NCBI GenBank assembly: GCA_900107185.1
Contig: FNPA01000009.1
Location: 62,001 to 126,000 of the forward strand
Source: Ruminococcaceae bacterium YAD3003
GTDB lineage: Bacteria > Bacillota > Clostridia > Saccharofermentanales > Saccharofermentanaceae
Direction: 5' to 3'
DNA length: 64,000 bases
Of this stretch, positions 14,036 through 31,194 are shown one piece after another. The first letter of the stretch is position 1; each line of letters starts with the position of its first letter. The notes under the pieces are model-generated. The model did no database searches. It was not told the DNA's origin and saw only the letters and a list, made by a program, of their open reading frames with translations. The position numbers and the translations under genes are program-made.

Positions 14036-14380
14036 ATGAAACACATTAATACTTACGAATTAGATCTTTTAGATCTTGATACCGTTACAGGTGGAAACAT
14101 TTCAGAGACAGCCAAGGACAGCCAGTTCTTAACAGAGATCGGAGTTATGAACGACGGCATAAGCGAGATGAGATTAACTTTCGCTTGGGATTCCAATTCA
14201 GCAGCAGTCGATGCAGGCTGGGCAAGCATCGGAATCGTTTGCGTAACAGTACCTTTCGATACTAACAGATACTATTTGAACGGCAAGCAGATCGGCAGAA
14301 AAGCAGCTCTGAATTACGCAATGCAGAAGACAGGTAAATACATCCGCATCACGGATTACCTTATGCCTTACGCTTCATAA
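14036..14380 (+). CDS. Small secreted-type peptide with double-glycine leader
   Basis: 114 residues. The N-terminus MKHINTYELDLLDLDTVTGG has the acidic ELxxLDxDxVxGG layout of double-glycine leaders cleaved by C39-peptidase ABC exporters, giving a 94-residue core from N21. The core has no cysteine except C64, contains Gly/Ala-rich stretches (AAVDAGWASIGIV) and ends in aromatic residues. The ribosome site AAGGAGG is strong. No exporter, modification enzyme or immunity gene is nearby, so it would depend on a transporter elsewhere. Bacteriocin or signalling peptide is inference. Confidence 0.65.
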   Translation: MKHINTYELDLLDLDTVTGGNISETAKDSQFLTEIGVMNDGISEMRLTFAWDSNSAAVDAGWASIGIVCVTVPFDTNRYYLNGKQIGRKAALNYAMQKTGKYIRITDYLMPYAS

Positions 14381-18679: not shown

Positions 18680-18789
18680 GGGAAAAATATGGGAGTAAAA
18701 CGCCTCAATTACTCCCAAAAATGAGCAAAACCACTCCAAATTGCAGAAAAATGGGAGTAAAACCGACGTTTTACTCCCAAAATAATCCC
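18680..18789 (+). repeat. GGGAGTAAA multi-hairpin element, copy 1
   Basis: 110 bp. Order: outer GGGAAAAATA, hairpin 1 (TGGGAGTAAAA / TTACTCCCA), middle with ACTCCA and ATTGC, hairpin 2 (TGGGAGTAAAA / TTTTACTCCCA), outer ATAATCCC. It lies between the TRIC-type gene and the convergent thrH-like gene. It contains no reading frame. Three more copies occur at 35930, 52471 and 59476. Confidence 0.8.
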
Positions 18790-18807: not shown

Positions 18808-19416
18808 TCAGTTCGAATCCGGAACCGCCTTGATGGCAGCCAGCAGATCAGCGAACTCCTCGAACGCCGGAATATCCGGGTTGTCAGCGATGATCTTCTC
18901 TGTGCTCTTGAAAAGGAAACCTGCCTTAGAAGCCTTGATCATTGCGAGGTCATTATATGAGTCGCCGGAAGCGATGGTGTCGAAACCGATGGACTGCAGC
19001 GCGCGAACCGTGGACAGCTTTGAATTCTCGATTCTCATCTTGAAGTCTTCGATCATGCCGTCCTCTCCTACGATGAGTGAGTTGCAGAACAGCGCCGGAT
19101 AGCCGAGTTTTGCCATCAGGGGCATAGCGAACTGTGTGAAAGTGTCGCTGATGATAATGACCTGCATATCCTTACGGAGCTCGTCTAAGAATTCCTTTGC
19201 ACCCGGCAGAGGATCGATCTGCGCGATAACGTCCTGGATCTCCTTGAGGCCGAGGCCGTGCTCTCTTAAGATTCCGAGTCTCCAGTGCATGAGCTTATCG
19301 TAATCAGGCTCATCTCTTGTGGTGCGGGTAAGCTCCGGAATGCCGGTCTTCTTTGAGAACTCGATCCAGATCTCCGGTACCAGAACACCTTCCATATCAA
19401 GGCAAACAATATTCAT
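18808..19416 (-). CDS. thrH: HAD phosphatase, ThrH-like (phosphoserine phosphatase/homoserine phosphotransferase)
   Basis: 202 residues closely following ThrH: CLDMEGVLVPEIWIEF with nucleophile D7 and acid/base E9 (DxE instead of DxD is typical of ThrH), TTRDEPDYDKLMHWRLGIL, and a late GDSYND metal-binding motif. ThrH dephosphorylates phosphoserine and can transfer the phosphate to homoserine. The ribosome site is GGGGAGG. It lies 17 nt after the MBOAT gene, in the same transcript as the FkbH-ACP-MBOAT genes, which is unexpected for an amino-acid enzyme. It may serve a phosphorylated C3 or C4 intermediate there. Confidence 0.85.
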   Translation of the reverse strand: MNIVCLDMEGVLVPEIWIEFSKKTGIPELTRTTRDEPDYDKLMHWRLGILREHGLGLKEIQDVIAQIDPLPGAKEFLDELRKDMQVIIISDTFTQFAMPLMAKLGYPALFCNSLIVGEDGMIEDFKMRIENSKLSTVRALQSIGFDTIASGDSYNDLAMIKASKAGFLFKSTEKIIADNPDIPAFEEFADLLAAIKAVPDSN

Positions 19417-19433
19417 AAAAAGATTTCCTCCCC

Positions 19434-20978
19434 TTAGATTGTAGCGTATATAAATGAGCCAGCGTTATAGCCCATGCCATACATTCCGAAAATCAAAGTT
19501 GCTACCGTAATGAACATGAATGCTGCCCAGAGAACGACGATGCCCTTGCTTCTTAAGAAGGCGATCGCGGACTTGGCCTTTTCATCTTCACTCGGTACGT
19601 ATTTGTATGCGTCAACCAGAACGACGACCAGAACAGCAGCGATTAGAACGATGAGGTTCTTGAGATCCATTCCCGAAGATGAGAAATTCGCCCAGTTGAG
19701 TGCAACGCCGCCTCTGCGGAAGATCGCTGCATACATGTCGATCGCGTCCTTAACCGTTGCTGATCTGAAGAATACAAATCCCGTGAGCATCAGCACGAAA
19801 GTGCGCAAAGACTGGAAGATCCTGAAGTAGAGTTTGTCTGCTCCGATCTTCGGTCTGATCTTTTTGAACAACGGCTCGAAAACCATTCCCAGCACTATAT
19901 AAACGAAGTGCAGGATACCTGAGCCGATAACGTAATTCCAGAGGCCGCCATGCCAGTAACCGACTGCGAACCAGAGGATCAATAATGCGATGTAAGTAGG
20001 AACTTTCTTACCGTTCTTCTTGCCGAACTTCGCCTTCGACCAGTCACCGATCTTGATCAGGGGTGCAGACTTCAAAACAGGATACATAAGGTAATCGCGG
20101 AGCCATGCACCCAGTGTGATGTGCCATCTTCTCCAGTATTCCTTGACGGTCTTTGAGAAGAACGGGCAATTGAAGTTCTCGGGCAGTTCGATGCCGAGCA
20201 TATGTGATACACCGATTACAACTTCCATACATCCTGAGAAGTCGCAATAGAGCTGGATCGCAAAGAAGAATACTCCGAGGGGAACGTACCAGCCTGTGAA
20301 GTTAACATGGTCAGCGTAGATCATGTTTACGACCATAGCGGCACGGTCAGCGATTACGAGCTTTTTGAAAAAACCCCATGCAACTCTTACTGCGCCGTCA
20401 GTGATCCTTGAGATCGAGAACTTAACTTCCTTTGTCTTCTCAAATTCTGCGGACAAAGAAGCGTAGGTGTTCATAGGTCCCGACATAAGCTGCGGGAAAT
20501 ATGTTGAGAACAGCAATACCTTGAAGAAGTTCTTTTCGGGAGTTATCTTCTCCCATCTGCAGTCCAGAATATATCCCGTTGTCTGCAGAACATAGAAAGA
20601 CATTCCGACCGGCACTGCGTATTTGAAGAACGAATTTGCTCCGTCAACTGCGCCGAACAGCAAATCCAGTCTCTCGGATGCTGAACCGATTACGTTATAG
20701 TATTTGACCGCACAGAGGAGTGCGATGTTGATTACAACTGTGATTATCGTGGCCGCATTGCGCGCGCCGTTGCTCCTGCCCGCACCTGACAGCAGACCTC
20801 CGATATAACAAAGAACCGCTGATATGAGCACAAACACCAGAGTGTAGAATCCCAGAAAACCTGCGAACACAAGGCTCGCAAGCATTACGACCCAGATTCT
20901 GAAACTCTTGGGTACGACATAGTAGAGCAGTAAAACTGCTGCAACAAATACCAGGAAAAGTGCGGATACCAGCGACAT
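19434..20978 (-). CDS. MBOAT-family membrane O-acyltransferase (DltB/AlgI-like)
   Basis: 514 residues, about 11-12 transmembrane segments. The membrane-bound O-acyltransferase core is clear: FSTYFPQLMSGPMN, YCDFSGCMEVVIG, KEYWRRWHITLGAWLRDYLMYP, and the catalytic histidine region FAVGYWHGGLWNYVIG. Such proteins move acyl groups from a cytoplasmic carrier across the membrane onto polysaccharide or teichoic acid. The neighbouring acyl carrier protein and FkbH-like protein are its likely acyl supply. No DltD-type partner is visible. Confidence 0.92.
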   Translation of the reverse strand: MSLVSALFLVFVAAVLLLYYVVPKSFRIWVVMLASLVFAGFLGFYTLVFVLISAVLCYIGGLLSGAGRSNGARNAATIITVVINIALLCAVKYYNVIGSASERLDLLFGAVDGANSFFKYAVPVGMSFYVLQTTGYILDCRWEKITPEKNFFKVLLFSTYFPQLMSGPMNTYASLSAEFEKTKEVKFSISRITDGAVRVAWGFFKKLVIADRAAMVVNMIYADHVNFTGWYVPLGVFFFAIQLYCDFSGCMEVVIGVSHMLGIELPENFNCPFFSKTVKEYWRRWHITLGAWLRDYLMYPVLKSAPLIKIGDWSKAKFGKKNGKKVPTYIALLILWFAVGYWHGGLWNYVIGSGILHFVYIVLGMVFEPLFKKIRPKIGADKLYFRIFQSLRTFVLMLTGFVFFRSATVKDAIDMYAAIFRRGGVALNWANFSSSGMDLKNLIVLIAAVLVVVLVDAYKYVPSEDEKAKSAIAFLRSKGIVVLWAAFMFITVATLIFGMYGMGYNAGSFIYATI

Positions 20979-20988
20979 TAATTAACCC

Positions 20989-21231
20989 TTAGCCGAGATG
21001 AGCGATGATTCTGTCTACCATCTCACCGACATTCTTAAGACCTGTCGTCTCACCCATCGTGAACTTGATGCCAAAGCATCTCTCGACTGCAACAATAAGA
21101 TTGATGTGCTCTAATGAATCCCATCCGTCAACGTCTGCAGCAACAGTCGCATCGTTTACTGTGATGTCCTCATCATCGAAAACATCCTGGAACACTTCAT
21201 TAAGCTTTACGTAAATCTCTTCTCTTGTCAT
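20989..21231 (-). CDS. Acyl carrier protein
   Basis: 80-residue dedicated carrier protein. The phosphopantetheine serine is S39 in GWDSLEHINLI, and it has the typical acidic four-helix pattern. The ATG at 21231 has GAAGGAG upstream. It starts 29 nt after the FkbH-like stop and precedes the MBOAT gene by 10 nt, so it probably carries the unit made by FkbH to the MBOAT enzyme rather than serving fatty-acid synthesis. Confidence 0.92.
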   Translation of the reverse strand: MTREEIYVKLNEVFQDVFDDEDITVNDATVAADVDGWDSLEHINLIVAVERCFGIKFTMGETTGLKNVGEMVDRIIAHLG

Positions 21232-21260
21232 TATCTTATCTCCTTCAAACCGGGCGGAAC

Positions 21261-23054
21261 TCAGTTTACCTTGATCGCAACGTTTCCGCTCTTGTGGGGC
21301 TTCGAGAGGTCGAGCAGCCACTCTGATGTGCCGTCTTCCATCTCCCTGATCTTCTCAAATCCCTGAAGCTCGTAGAAATCCTTGACCATTTTATTCTTTG
21401 CGGTCGGATAATAGTAGCCTTTAATCATTGTGATATTTTTGGATTTTGCCTGGGAAATCAGCTCGTCCATCATTGCAAATTCCATACCGCGCTTGAGGAC
21501 ACGGCAGCTCATAAGCCACAGATCGATGTGGAAGAACTTATCATTTCCGTAGTCTTCCTCATGTCCGAAAGTAACCGCTACAACGCCGTTATCGCCGAAT
21601 TTGTCCTCCAGCCTTCCGTACAAAGTAATGAACTTCGGGTCAGCTGCGAACTTCTCGATATCTGCCTGTGAGCATCTCTTTGTCGTGAGATTGAACTGGT
21701 TGCTCTTATTTGTGAGCTCTGCAATCCTTGCCATATATACCGGCGCGAAAGGCTTGATCTCGGCAGTCATTTCGAGCGATCTCAAATACTCGTCGTAATT
21801 CTCGAACGAAGCCGATGCCTTGGCACGCTCCATGTTAGCCTTATACATTCCGCTGCGCTTGATATCCTCTTCAGAAATTCCGGTTACCTCAAAGAATCCG
21901 TTTGAATCGATAACGTCGATATAAGTCTCAGGCGCGCCTACCTCGGGAACGCTGATTCCCTGGATCTGATTCTCGACCAGCGCACGCTCAACAGGATTAT
22001 CGTCAACGAAGACGAAACTGTCGGCACCGATGTTTATCTCTTTCGCTGTGTTGGCAATATTGATGTCCTTGTTGTCCCAATTGGCCTTGATAATGAGGAA
22101 GTCATCCTTCTTCAATGTCGAGTCGGGACGTGCGAGACCAGCCAGCGCGTTCTCTTCGTCGTTCTTCGAAGCAACGGTGAGCAAGATTCCCAAATCCTTG
22201 TGAGCCTTGATGTACTGCTGGAATTCCGTATAGAGCTCAGACTCTGCGTCCTCGTGGCCGATCCTGATATTCTCCGGACCGTCGTCACCTACGATGCCGC
22301 CCCACAATGTGTTGTCCATGTCGAGCGCGAACGCCTTTTTATTGCGTCCGTAAACCGCCTTGATGATGTGAGCGAGATTGAACGCAAAATCAGGGATCGC
22401 AGAAACGCTCAGCGCATATTTATATCTGTACCAGTCACCCGGATCTGCCCACTTCTTGATGCCGTAGACAGCAGAGACGTAGTTAATGTCGTTAATGAAG
22501 AAATTCTGGTGTGCCTGGGCATAATTGCAGAACCTGTCGTTCAGTCTGTTGATGAAGTTCAGTCTTCCGTGAATATTCGTAAAATCGCTGTTGCCCAGGA
22601 GCCTGAAATAAGGCTGCTCGAAATTATTCTGGATTACCGTGCACTGATAACGGTCAGCCAATGCCTTCCAAATCTGCTCGAATCTTCCCATCGTCTCTTC
22701 GATGAGGGCATCGATCTGCTCAGGTGAATCTGTTACCTTCGGGAAGTTTGCTATATTTCTCGTTGTCGTGTGAACGAACACGAGATCCGGATTAAACTCA
22801 TCCAACTCAGGATTGCCGAATACAGCATCCTGGTAATACTGGTTATATTCAGATTCGTAGAATTCGGGCCTGATTCCGTAGTTTAAGAGGAACAGCTCTA
22901 ATATCTGCTTGATATCGCTCGTTGTGGAACCGCCCAAGATAGCGATCTTCTTATCGATGTACTGTATTCCTTCCCTCGCCAAAAGCTCTCTTCGGATAGC
23001 CTTTTTCTTGCGCAGGATAAAGTCAGAATCGTAAGGATACTCCAGCTGTTTCAT
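21261..23054 (-). CDS. FkbH-like HAD-IIIC protein with N-terminal SGNH-like and C-terminal GNAT-like regions
   Basis: 597 residues. Residues 1-235 form a Rossmann-type region (IAILGGSTTSDIKQIL; VFVHTTTRN) resembling an SGNH fold. The HAD domain begins at FALDMDNTLWGGIVGDDG with D245 and D247. The C-terminal part (MEFAMMDELISQAK...) looks like a GNAT fold. Known FkbH proteins take 1,3-bisphosphoglycerate, remove phosphate and load a glyceryl unit on an acyl carrier protein. The adjacent carrier and MBOAT genes fit transfer of that unit to a surface acceptor. First gene of the four-gene cluster. Confidence 0.9.
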   Translation of the reverse strand: MKQLEYPYDSDFILRKKKAIRRELLAREGIQYIDKKIAILGGSTTSDIKQILELFLLNYGIRPEFYESEYNQYYQDAVFGNPELDEFNPDLVFVHTTTRNIANFPKVTDSPEQIDALIEETMGRFEQIWKALADRYQCTVIQNNFEQPYFRLLGNSDFTNIHGRLNFINRLNDRFCNYAQAHQNFFINDINYVSAVYGIKKWADPGDWYRYKYALSVSAIPDFAFNLAHIIKAVYGRNKKAFALDMDNTLWGGIVGDDGPENIRIGHEDAESELYTEFQQYIKAHKDLGILLTVASKNDEENALAGLARPDSTLKKDDFLIIKANWDNKDINIANTAKEINIGADSFVFVDDNPVERALVENQIQGISVPEVGAPETYIDVIDSNGFFEVTGISEEDIKRSGMYKANMERAKASASFENYDEYLRSLEMTAEIKPFAPVYMARIAELTNKSNQFNLTTKRCSQADIEKFAADPKFITLYGRLEDKFGDNGVVAVTFGHEEDYGNDKFFHIDLWLMSCRVLKRGMEFAMMDELISQAKSKNITMIKGYYYPTAKNKMVKDFYELQGFEKIREMEDGTSEWLLDLSKPHKSGNVAIKVN

Positions 23055-27663: not shown

Positions 27664-30600
27664 TTAAATTGTAGGGTCATTTTCTTCTGAATACTCTTCC
27701 TTTTTTCTGATGAGATAAAGGCCTGTAGCTGCAGCTGCTGCAATCATGAGGGACGCGATTACGTATCTTGTGTAATCGACTGTTTCACCTGTGGAAACAA
27801 CTGCTGCGGCAACCTTCGTACCGATCGTAACTATAAACGGTGAGAAGGACTTTGTCTCAAATGTGAGTGTCAGATTCTTAGCGTTATAAACTGCTTCGAT
27901 CAACTCAAAACCGTCTTCCAACATATGGAGTATTACGACTGTCTCGCCGTCTTCGAGGTCAAGTTCTTCCTTCAATACGAGTGTGATCCTTACAGGGAAA
28001 CCGGGATCATGTACGGCTCCATCCTTATCGAAGAGAGTGATGTCGAATGCCATCGGGAAAACAACACCTGTGTATCCTTCATCAGCTACCTGCTTCTTAA
28101 CTGCAGCAATATCTTCATCATCTGCTTCTTCGATATTGAGTTCAGATACTACGAGAAGATAATCATCGATCTCATCTTCGCTGAGTCCTACGAAAACAGC
28201 AGATACGGAAGTGAGACTTTCAGTAAAATTCATTGTCTCAGTCTCAGGAATCATGCCCCATGCATCGATCTTCAAGTAATCATGCTTATCCGGATACTTG
28301 ATGCTGTTCGCACCTATAGGGGTAGTAAGGCACTCTTCATAATCACCCGCGAGCCAGAAAATTGCATAACCGTTAATGCCCTTTATCACTACTTCATAAG
28401 GACATTCACCGTACGAGATCTCGTAATAAGTGTAATCCTCAGGATCAGCCTTTCCACACTCGAAAGCAGGATACTTAATACCATCAGGAGTGCTCAGAGG
28501 TTTGACTTCTTTGCCGTTCTTATCCAGAACCGTCATGCTGATATCTATCTCTGTAACATCAATACCAATTACCCAGCACTGAGCAAAATAGATCTCGATT
28601 GAATTCACGCCGTTCTTGATGTCCTCTACTGTAACGAAGTGTCCGGGTATGAACTCTTCACGTTCTTCGAGGTTGGAAACCATGACTTTCTCACCGTCAA
28701 CATAGTAGATCAGCTCGAAATCAGGAGACAAATCGTCAGGCAGTCTGTTTGAAATTACGGCGTCGCCCGGAATAGCCTGGCCAGGTTCAACAGGAGCGAA
28801 ATCTTCGCCTTCCTTTGTACCGATAAGAACTTCGCCGTCAATTACTACGACGTCATAACAGGGAACCTCTCGTTCGCCATTTCCATTTTCCGGACGCGGA
28901 GGATCGTTGCCGGGTTCCTGAGTATTCTGCTTAGGTTCAGCTGTAAATCCTTCAGGTACATTTGCTTCAGGAACATCATTAGCAGTTGTTCCTACCATGA
29001 AATCAGAGAATCCTGTTGTATTGAAGAATACTGTATGAGTCTCAGCATCGTACGTTGTATCAAGATACTCCGGTTCGCCTTTGTTTCCGTTTGCATCTTC
29101 CGGAATATGGATAATCTGGACATTCTCGTCACCCGGATCAAAGTCTTCACCAAGATCCAAAGCTACCCATACATTTCCGCCATTAAGATCATCATGCAAA
29201 GCATCTTTCCAATAATCATTAGTATTAGCAATCTTGAAACGGTTGTCCAAATCAATGCTGAGATATTCCTGAACTTCAATATCATTATCCCAGTCAGTAT
29301 TTGCATAACTGTTCTTTTCAGCATTAGTCAATTCAGTAACGGTAGCAAGACCGGAACCTGAATCGATAACAGTCTCAGAGAGTTCAATGTTACCCTGTAC
29401 TACCGGACCACCTTCTACCTTAAGTTCATCAGGCTCAAGAATGAACTGCGAACTGAAATGTACACAATTATCATGTACATCAAATACATAGATATTTGCA
29501 TCTGCATCATCTGCAGATGTTGTAGGAACATATTCAGGGAATCCATTCTCGCAAACAGTATCGAGCTGATATCCACGTTCAGGAATAAGCTTGAAAACTA
29601 TTTTATATCCGGATTCTACCGTGATACCCCCATTGCCCCATTCATCCTTACAATTAGCAAGATCATATAACCAGGATATATCATTGCCACTACCATCTAA
29701 AACAGACAGTATTTCAGCTGAACCATGATCAAAAACACAATGTTCTGCTATCAGATTGCCTTGTATATGATCATCAGGAACATTTGAATCAGACCACTCG
29801 ATTCGTGCTGCATGAGCATTATCACCAACTACTTTAATTGTTATTAAACCATCTTCTTCAGGATCGAAAGAATTGTCAGAAAGGTCTGCTGCAAAATAAT
29901 CAATTTCTGCATAACTGAAAATCTTCGGAACAGTTTGGTTATCTATAACCTGAGTTACCTTTGCTCCGTTTACTTCAACATATTTAAAACGGAAATTCTC
30001 ATATTCTTCTTCTCCGTCTCCGCTATTAAAACCTTCAGGCGTATGGAAAGGCTGCAAATGGAAACGGTTAATCGTTCCCTCGCAATAAACTACAGTAGAG
30101 TCGCTAAAATCATCAGCAACAAACTCATTATGCTTCATTGCATACCTTACGGAACCTTGTTCTGTACGCTCTTCAACATGGTCTTCAACATTCACATTGC
30201 AAATAACAAAGAACTCACACCAAATGTTTGAAGAAACCTCTACTCGGGTAACGGGATTTAAATCGATAACCCAATTGACTTTTGAATTATTGTTTCCACC
30301 GGGAGCTTCTCCACCCTGATCGCCGCCAGCAGGAGCTTCACCACCCTGGTCACCACCAGCAGGAACTTCTCCACCCTGGTCACCACCAGCAGGAGCTTCG
30401 CCGCCCTGATCGCCACCAGCAGGAGCTTCACCACCCTGGTCGCCACCAGCAGGAACTTCTCCACCCTGGTCACCAGCAGGAACTTCACCGCCCTGGTCGC
30501 CAGCAGGAACTTCGCCGCCCTGGTCACCACCAGCAGGAGCTTCGCCACCCTGTTCACCACCAGCAGGAGCTTCGCCGCCTTGATCGCCTGGAACAGGAGG

Positions 30601-30981
30601 TTCGCCACCATTATTAGCAGGATTAAAGAATCCCCTGTATTGAACCAAATGGTTCACTATATATGACTCTCCCTCATGAAGAGTAACATGGGCACTGCCA
30701 TCCATAAGATTGATTTCCAAATCAGTATCTATAGAATCGGAACCATTAGAGACTTCCAATGTGATAGTAGAACCCGGATACAGGTATTCATTTTCTGCAA
30801 CCGCCTGACTACCACTCTTTAATCCTGAGCAGTCACCACTTTCTTCATCATAAGTAAAAGTGTAGTTTTCAGCACTTGTTTGCTCATCTGCTCTGACTAT
30901 AAATTCAGTCAACGGGCAATTGGAAATCAACAATCCAAATGCTGTTACTGATGCAACTGTGTACCTAAATAAACGTTTCAT
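27664..30981 (-). CDS. Large secreted, membrane-anchored surface protein with Gly-Asp-Gln-Gly repeats
   Basis: 1105 residues from the ATG at 30981 (AAAGGAG upstream). A signal peptide (about 1-31) is followed by an acidic domain, a Gly-rich tandem region at residues 125-229 of ten GDQGGExPAG-like units, several hundred residues of acidic beta-type sequence, and a C-terminal hydrophobic helix (YVIASLMIAAAAATGLYLI) with an RKKEE tail. The segment VVSTGETVDY before the helix resembles a sortase signal without its LP. The repeats probably act as a flexible stalk. Base composition of the middle (29.2-30.1 kb) is more AT-rich than its surroundings. The ligand is unknown. Confidence 0.8.
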   Translation of the reverse strand: MKRLFRYTVASVTAFGLLISNCPLTEFIVRADEQTSAENYTFTYDEESGDCSGLKSGSQAVAENEYLYPGSTITLEVSNGSDSIDTDLEINLMDGSAHVTLHEGESYIVNHLVQYRGFFNPANNGGEPPVPGDQGGEAPAGGEQGGEAPAGGDQGGEVPAGDQGGEVPAGDQGGEVPAGGDQGGEAPAGGDQGGEAPAGGDQGGEVPAGGDQGGEAPAGGDQGGEAPGGNNNSKVNWVIDLNPVTRVEVSSNIWCEFFVICNVNVEDHVEERTEQGSVRYAMKHNEFVADDFSDSTVVYCEGTINRFHLQPFHTPEGFNSGDGEEEYENFRFKYVEVNGAKVTQVIDNQTVPKIFSYAEIDYFAADLSDNSFDPEEDGLITIKVVGDNAHAARIEWSDSNVPDDHIQGNLIAEHCVFDHGSAEILSVLDGSGNDISWLYDLANCKDEWGNGGITVESGYKIVFKLIPERGYQLDTVCENGFPEYVPTTSADDADANIYVFDVHDNCVHFSSQFILEPDELKVEGGPVVQGNIELSETVIDSGSGLATVTELTNAEKNSYANTDWDNDIEVQEYLSIDLDNRFKIANTNDYWKDALHDDLNGGNVWVALDLGEDFDPGDENVQIIHIPEDANGNKGEPEYLDTTYDAETHTVFFNTTGFSDFMVGTTANDVPEANVPEGFTAEPKQNTQEPGNDPPRPENGNGEREVPCYDVVVIDGEVLIGTKEGEDFAPVEPGQAIPGDAVISNRLPDDLSPDFELIYYVDGEKVMVSNLEEREEFIPGHFVTVEDIKNGVNSIEIYFAQCWVIGIDVTEIDISMTVLDKNGKEVKPLSTPDGIKYPAFECGKADPEDYTYYEISYGECPYEVVIKGINGYAIFWLAGDYEECLTTPIGANSIKYPDKHDYLKIDAWGMIPETETMNFTESLTSVSAVFVGLSEDEIDDYLLVVSELNIEEADDEDIAAVKKQVADEGYTGVVFPMAFDITLFDKDGAVHDPGFPVRITLVLKEELDLEDGETVVILHMLEDGFELIEAVYNAKNLTLTFETKSFSPFIVTIGTKVAAAVVSTGETVDYTRYVIASLMIAAAAATGLYLIRKKEEYSEENDPTI
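30295..30609. repeat. In-frame tandem repeat encoding GDQGGExPAG units
   Basis: Ten units of 27 or 30 bp coding for 9-10 residues inside the surface protein gene. Neighbouring units are almost identical at DNA level and differ mainly in an Ala/Val codon and presence of one Gly codon, so slippage could change copy number. Confidence 0.85.
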
Positions 30982-31194
30982 ACAGGACTCCTTTCTTTCG
31001 ATGTGCGTCAAACAAAGAAACAATTTCCAAATATAAAAACATTTTTACATGGAGGCACGTCGAATACCATTAATTCCCTGTGAACAGATAGGGTTTTAAG
31101 TAAAGATTCTGTGTATATTTGTTGGCGAGTCAAAGTAAAAGAGGCCGCCTCTTTCGAGATGACCCCTGATAAAACCGGTTAAAAGCCTTGCAGA

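Follow-up and report, generated by a model that had tools for sequence, protein, structure and literature searches.

Acylation of the bacterial envelope by MBOAT and SGNH proteins is known for acetyl groups, which come from coenzyme A (CoA), and for D-alanyl groups, which come from a carrier protein. Tails of the FXYXXF type act as acyl shuttles in DltX and in PatA-type MBOATs, where the tyrosine carries the acyl group to the SGNH partner, and a carrier protein is missing from MBOAT/SGNH pathways other than Dlt (PMC12148441). Here we describe a gene cluster of Ruminococcaceae bacterium YAD3003 in which carrier and fused tail co-occur. It occupies positions 18808-23054 of a 64,000-nucleotide stretch of DNA (assembly GCA_900107185.1, contig FNPA01000009.1, positions 62,001 to 126,000; the whole stretch is termed the window) and encodes FkbH, a stand-alone acyl carrier protein (ACP), an MBOAT protein and ThrH. 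We consider it likely that the cluster forms the donor side of a Dlt-like pathway for acylating a polymer of the cell surface, in which an FkbH loader replaces the amino-acid ligase. The observations behind this proposal are the genes and their conservation, the intact active sites, the MBOAT tail, an SGNH gene elsewhere in the genome together with its synteny, the exclusion pattern between two loading systems, the phylogenetic trees and the folds of the structure models.

We infer both the glyceryl substrate and the acyl relay. In the first step, the HAD domain of FkbH would take 1,3-bisphosphoglycerate from glycolysis, remove the phosphate and place the glyceryl group on Cys517, from which the GNAT-fold domain would pass it to the phosphopantetheine of the ACP. 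At the inner face of the membrane, the MBOAT protein would then accept the glyceryl group from the ACP and move it through the His286/His343 channel to Tyr511 of its tail on the outside, and a distantly encoded DltD-like SGNH transferase would move it from the tail onto the polymer. The acceptor would be a teichoic-acid-like or other envelope glycan. ThrH would be dispensable for such a relay.

The four open reading frames are all on the minus strand and are separated by 29, 10 and 17 nucleotides, which confirms the initial annotation of four genes running in one direction with gaps of 10-29 nucleotides. Its family names also hold, each protein scoring above its Pfam or TIGRFAM cut-off. The order FkbH-ACP-MBOAT-ThrH recurs in module-bearing congeners wherever the contig is long enough, and is therefore not due to chance. 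Most likely, however, only the first three genes form the module and ThrH is a passenger.

FkbH (21261..23054, minus strand, 597 residues) combines an FkbH_N domain, a HAD-IIIC phosphatase-type domain and a C-terminal GNAT-fold domain. It scores 268 bits against TIGR01686 (cut-off 146.65), with model positions 3-320 of 323 matched. The N-terminus matches Pfam FkbH_N (PF21211), and the N-terminal and HAD parts match PDB entry 3slr (E 7e-56). The C-terminal 202 residues were modelled with a predicted local distance difference test score (pLDDT) of 88.3, and the Foldseek matches of this model in the PDB are GNAT acyltransferases (prob 1.00). Within the HAD motif D245-M-D247-N-T249 (DxDxT; 22308..22322, minus strand), D245, D247 and T249 are identical in 82 of 82 homologues, and K297, D351 and D352 are also invariant in all 82. 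The proposed acyl-thioester residue, Cys517 (21504..21506, minus strand), is equally conserved (82/82) and lies in the GNAT-fold domain within the segment SCRVLKRGME, which appears to be the pantetheine-binding loop of that fold. The ACP (20989..21231, minus strand, 80 residues) scores 21.7 bits against the PP-binding model PF00550 (cut-off 20.8), and its pantetheine site, Ser39 of a DSL motif (codon 21115-21117, minus strand), is present in 92 of 92 homologues. We propose that FkbH loads glyceryl from 1,3-bisphosphoglycerate onto this ACP.

The MBOAT protein (19434..20978, minus strand, 514 residues) is of the DltB type with extra C-terminal membrane segments. It matches PF03062 with 44.6 bits (cut-off 27) and the DltB structures 8jem and 6bug with an E value of 1e-23 (phmmer). 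Its score against the TIGR04091 DltB model is 141.6 bits, far under the 375-bit equivalog cut-off, which places it outside the DltB equivalog. The catalytic-type residues His286 and His343 are conserved in 86 of 86 homologues. The protein is longer than DltB, with added hydrophobic segments near residues 437-455 and 479-497, and it ends in SFIYATI, in which F509-I-Y511-A-T-I514 (19437..19454, minus strand) is an FXYXXF-type acyl-shuttle motif. Tyr511 is present in 86 of 86 homologues and Phe509 in 85 of 86, and the final position holds Ile in 46 of them and Phe in the other 40. A tailed MBOAT together with a DltC-like carrier is likewise encoded by the DltA-type operons within this genus.

The tail also bears on a different reading, in which the module would make a small exported molecule or lipid and the MBOAT protein would directly acylate a diffusible or membrane acceptor. 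Polyketide pathways are the best-known setting of FkbH and ACP, and the window's cluster contains no SGNH transferase gene. However, neither the window's open reading frames nor the Pfam scan revealed a polyketide, FabH-like or methyltransferase gene adjoining the cluster, the tail tyrosine, which in other systems delivers the acyl group to the SGNH partner, is retained without exception, and SGNH-type genes accompany most FkbH-MBOAT loci outside the genus (27 of 30; see below). We regard this reading as very improbable.

Further support for a Dlt-like envelope system comes from the genus itself, which was surveyed in 35 congeneric genomes, many of them fragmented metagenome bins. A DltA-type ligase (at least 55% identity) is encoded in 14 of the 35 and the FkbH module in 22 (19 found by FkbH and 3 by MBOAT at contig ends). 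The two hardly overlap: 13 genomes have the ligase, 21 have the module and one, G031, has both. The G031 bin also contains three SGNH copies and thus probably combines DNA from at least two species. No DltA ligase was matched in the window's genome at E ≤ 1e-60. The initial annotation had drawn a parallel with dltA-dltC-dltB in which FkbH stands in for the D-alanine ligase, and this parallel is strengthened by the finding that congeners carry either a DltA-type operon or the module together with a common DltD-like SGNH gene. A gene of the Asp/Glu racemase family lies just before dltA in several of the DltA-type congeners (L121:5379-6104, L126:5301-5993, L128:5161-5886 and L130:5022-5852). The L121 copy matches PF01177 and the ligase of these genomes scores under the cut-off of the DltA equivalog. 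These racemase-associated operons may load a D-amino acid that is not D-alanine.

The SGNH gene links the two kinds of genome. A search with a profile built from the SGNH proteins of DltA-type congeners found the family in 35 of 35 congeneric genomes and, in the window's genome, a DltD-like SGNH protein on another contig (G000:C25:34740-35819, 521 bits) with Cys68 at the position of the catalytic Ser of its relatives. Where contigs are long enough, the gene has the same position in both groups, between purF/radical-SAM and rplM-rpsI. In DltA-type genomes it is directly preceded by dltA-dltC-MBOAT. In FkbH-type genomes these three genes are gone from the locus and a glycosyltransferase gene precedes the SGNH gene. 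Block I of the protein is GDCE in the DltA-type group and GDCD in the FkbH-type group (21 proteins). The FkbH-type genomes form one clade in the SGNH tree (100/99), and the DltA form also occurs in genomes from another family of the order. Together these suggest an ancestral DltA form and a single swap to the FkbH module. In the MBOAT tree, the module MBOATs fall within the FkbH-linked clade of other Clostridia (100/99), separate from the congeneric Dlt MBOATs (97/90). The module therefore seems to have been acquired as a unit. Conversion of a congeneric Dlt MBOAT in situ was also considered, and is ruled out by the same tree.

Searches of the window's genome showed two MBOATs. One is adjacent to an SGNH protein of the AlgX/DHHW type, and the other is the window MBOAT, which has no SGNH neighbour. 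We infer that the C25 SGNH protein is the partner of the window MBOAT. The C25 protein could instead have been left behind when the Dlt operon was lost and now serve a different role, as its location on a separate contig would allow. Yet the protein is full-length in the 21 module-only genomes, where both the Cys at the nucleophile position (GDCD) and the lipoprotein-like neighbour are kept, and a competing unpaired MBOAT was not found in the window's genome. We consider a leftover unlikely.

Direct searches of the PDB by sequence gave no credible match for the SGNH families. A homologue from an FkbH-VOC-MBOAT locus (L094) was modelled with a pLDDT of 88.6. In the PDB this model is matched best by DltD structures (prob 0.99-1.00) and next by TesA-like SGNH hydrolases. 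The SGNH family of the genus aligns with that of the FkbH loci over 334 columns (probability 100%, E 4e-47), with Cys opposite Ser at the nucleophile. In the DltD-like SGNH family of the genus (family A1), Cys (GDC) replaces the catalytic Ser of other MBOAT partners in 41 of 41 sequences (for example Cys68 of L154:9722-10822). Between the SGNH gene and rplM, FkbH-type genomes carry runs of related secreted proteins with a VxIEAGS motif (L154:11536-12909 and following). Transglutaminase-core and Ig-like surface domains were identified in the one that was scanned.

Outside the genus, a contig scan of genomes yielded further FkbH loci (51 of 80 in total). The FkbH-ACP-MBOAT arrangement recurs across Clostridia: an MBOAT gene is nearby in 30 of the 51 outside loci, and 27 of these 30 also have an SGNH-type gene. 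None of the 51 has ThrH. Thus, the neighbour conservation called for in the initial annotation extends across Clostridia for FkbH-ACP-MBOAT but ends at the genus for ThrH. Some relatives carry additional genes between FkbH and MBOAT, consisting of VOC, of MaoC and SDR, or of aldo/keto reductase, transketolase halves and MaoC. The VOC gene, of the methylmalonyl-CoA-epimerase type (TIGR03081, 37 bits, under cut-off), separates ACP from MBOAT in some congeners and at 5 loci outside the genus. Of the 30 outside FkbH-MBOAT loci, 13 include MaoC, 8 include SDR and 7 include transketolase halves. The order FkbH-ACP-MaoC-SDR-MBOAT (L070:10044-11194, L077, L083 and L090) suggests, from gene content, an on-carrier change of glyceryl to pyruvyl and lactyl. 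These genes are the basis for a variant in which the relay is the same and the transferred group differs, the glyceryl being altered on the ACP by, for example, VOC epimerisation or MaoC and SDR conversion to pyruvyl or lactyl. The window's cluster and most of its close relatives, however, have no such gene between FkbH and MBOAT, and for the window we consider an altered group possible but unlikely.

Several points weigh against a glyceryl-transferring, Dlt-like system. The exclusion pattern is a single replacement in one clade and not many independent events, given that the SGNH tree has one FkbH-type clade. The SGNH gene is not beside the MBOAT gene in the window's genome, and its product has Cys instead of Ser at the nucleophile position. 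The MBOAT tail ends in Ile and not in the Phe of FXYXXF. The Foldseek match of the L094 SGNH model to DltD is modest (E 9e-4) and the global template modelling (TM) score is low (0.34-0.38). Finally, the VOC, MaoC/SDR or transketolase genes at related loci indicate that the transferred group may vary among members.

ThrH (18808..19416, minus strand, 202 residues) is a phosphoserine phosphatase/homoserine phosphotransferase-type protein that scores 233.9 bits against TIGR02137, above the equivalog cut-off of 223.4, and matches PDB entry 1rku (E 1e-57). The initial annotation had suggested that it might clear or make a phosphorylated C3 intermediate. Its adjacency and shared direction in the module-bearing congeners would suit such a role, as would a terminator-like hairpin after the gene (18752..18779, minus strand; 12-pair stem and T run), which fits a single transcript that includes thrH, although terminator-like sites in the scan (7, compared with 4.4 ± 2.4 in shuffles) are at about shuffle level. 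A working part in the system is nonetheless improbable. ThrH was found in 30 of 59 relatives searched, all 30 in the same genus, and is missing from every FkbH locus outside it. Ten DltA-type genomes, in which thrH is not near FkbH, are among the carriers, and in those examined it is at an unrelated locus, mostly beside Fe-ADH and a CCA-transferase-like gene. FkbH already contains a HAD domain. No other SerB or ThrB match above cut-off was found in the window's genome, and ThrH is therefore probably an amino-acid-metabolism gene that shares the cluster's transcript. A SerC-type match reached 43.9 bits only.

Several GGGAGTAAAAC copies in both orientations lie directly downstream of thrH (window positions 18690-18780), two of them making up the terminator-like hairpin. 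Elsewhere in the window, a 114-residue open reading frame (14036-14380, plus strand) has a leader-like start ending in TVTGG that resembles a double-glycine leader peptide, with no Pfam match, and a 1119-residue surface-type protein (27664-31023, minus strand) carries a long PAGGDQGGE-type repeat.

The initial reading of the cluster as a whole is partly supported; it did not include the distant SGNH transferase, the acyl-shuttle motif of the MBOAT tail, or the genes for VOC or MaoC/SDR/transketolase in relatives. Beyond the window, we lean slightly towards the view that carrier-dependent envelope acylation is modular, such that the same DltD-like transferase could receive either an amino acid from DltA/DltC/MBOAT or a neutral C3 hydroxyacid of glycolytic origin from an exchangeable FkbH/ACP/MBOAT cassette, with optional on-carrier editing by VOC, MaoC/SDR or transketolase, and with one swap in the Saccharofermentans-type clade. 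If true, this would be a new bacterial means of tuning surface chemistry, in which, among these rumen bacteria, a glycolytic C3 acid replaces an amino acid while the final transferase is kept. If 1,3-bisphosphoglycerate supplied a glyceryl version, surface chemistry would be coupled directly to glycolytic flux, a neutral decoration would take the place of a charged one and FkbH would have a role beyond polyketides. Because DltA-type and FkbH-type congeners have a common transferase, donor specificity is testable by exchange of parts. The open-access literature searched, outside which most subscription papers fall, contained no description of an FkbH-ACP-MBOAT surface system: FkbH with MBOAT or polysaccharide gave only papers on natural products or pathway software, and the combination of MBOAT, acyl carrier protein and SGNH gave none.

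Among known systems, the Dlt pathway of teichoic-acid D-alanylation (DltA-DltC-DltB-DltX-DltD) is similar in its stand-alone carrier, DltB-related MBOAT, Tyr-bearing tail and DltD-like SGNH protein, and the DltA-type congeners keep a Dlt-like operon with an orthologous SGNH gene. The window system differs in having FkbH and not DltA as the loader, a tail fused to the MBOAT protein instead of a separate DltX microprotein, and a distant SGNH gene with Cys for Ser, and the group expected here would be a neutral hydroxyacyl rather than a charged aminoacyl group. The PatA-PatB and AlgI-AlgX acetylation systems also have a C-terminal acyl-shuttle motif fused to the MBOAT protein and a separate SGNH transferase (PMC12148441). 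They are described as having no carrier protein and evidently use acyl-CoA donors, whereas the window system encodes a carrier and its loader with the MBOAT. The glycerate-loading modules of FK520, tetronate and bafilomycin biosynthesis similarly combine an FkbH-type enzyme with its own ACP, but the output of the window's module would go to an MBOAT protein and not to a polyketide synthase, a FabH-like ring former or methoxymalonyl enzymes.

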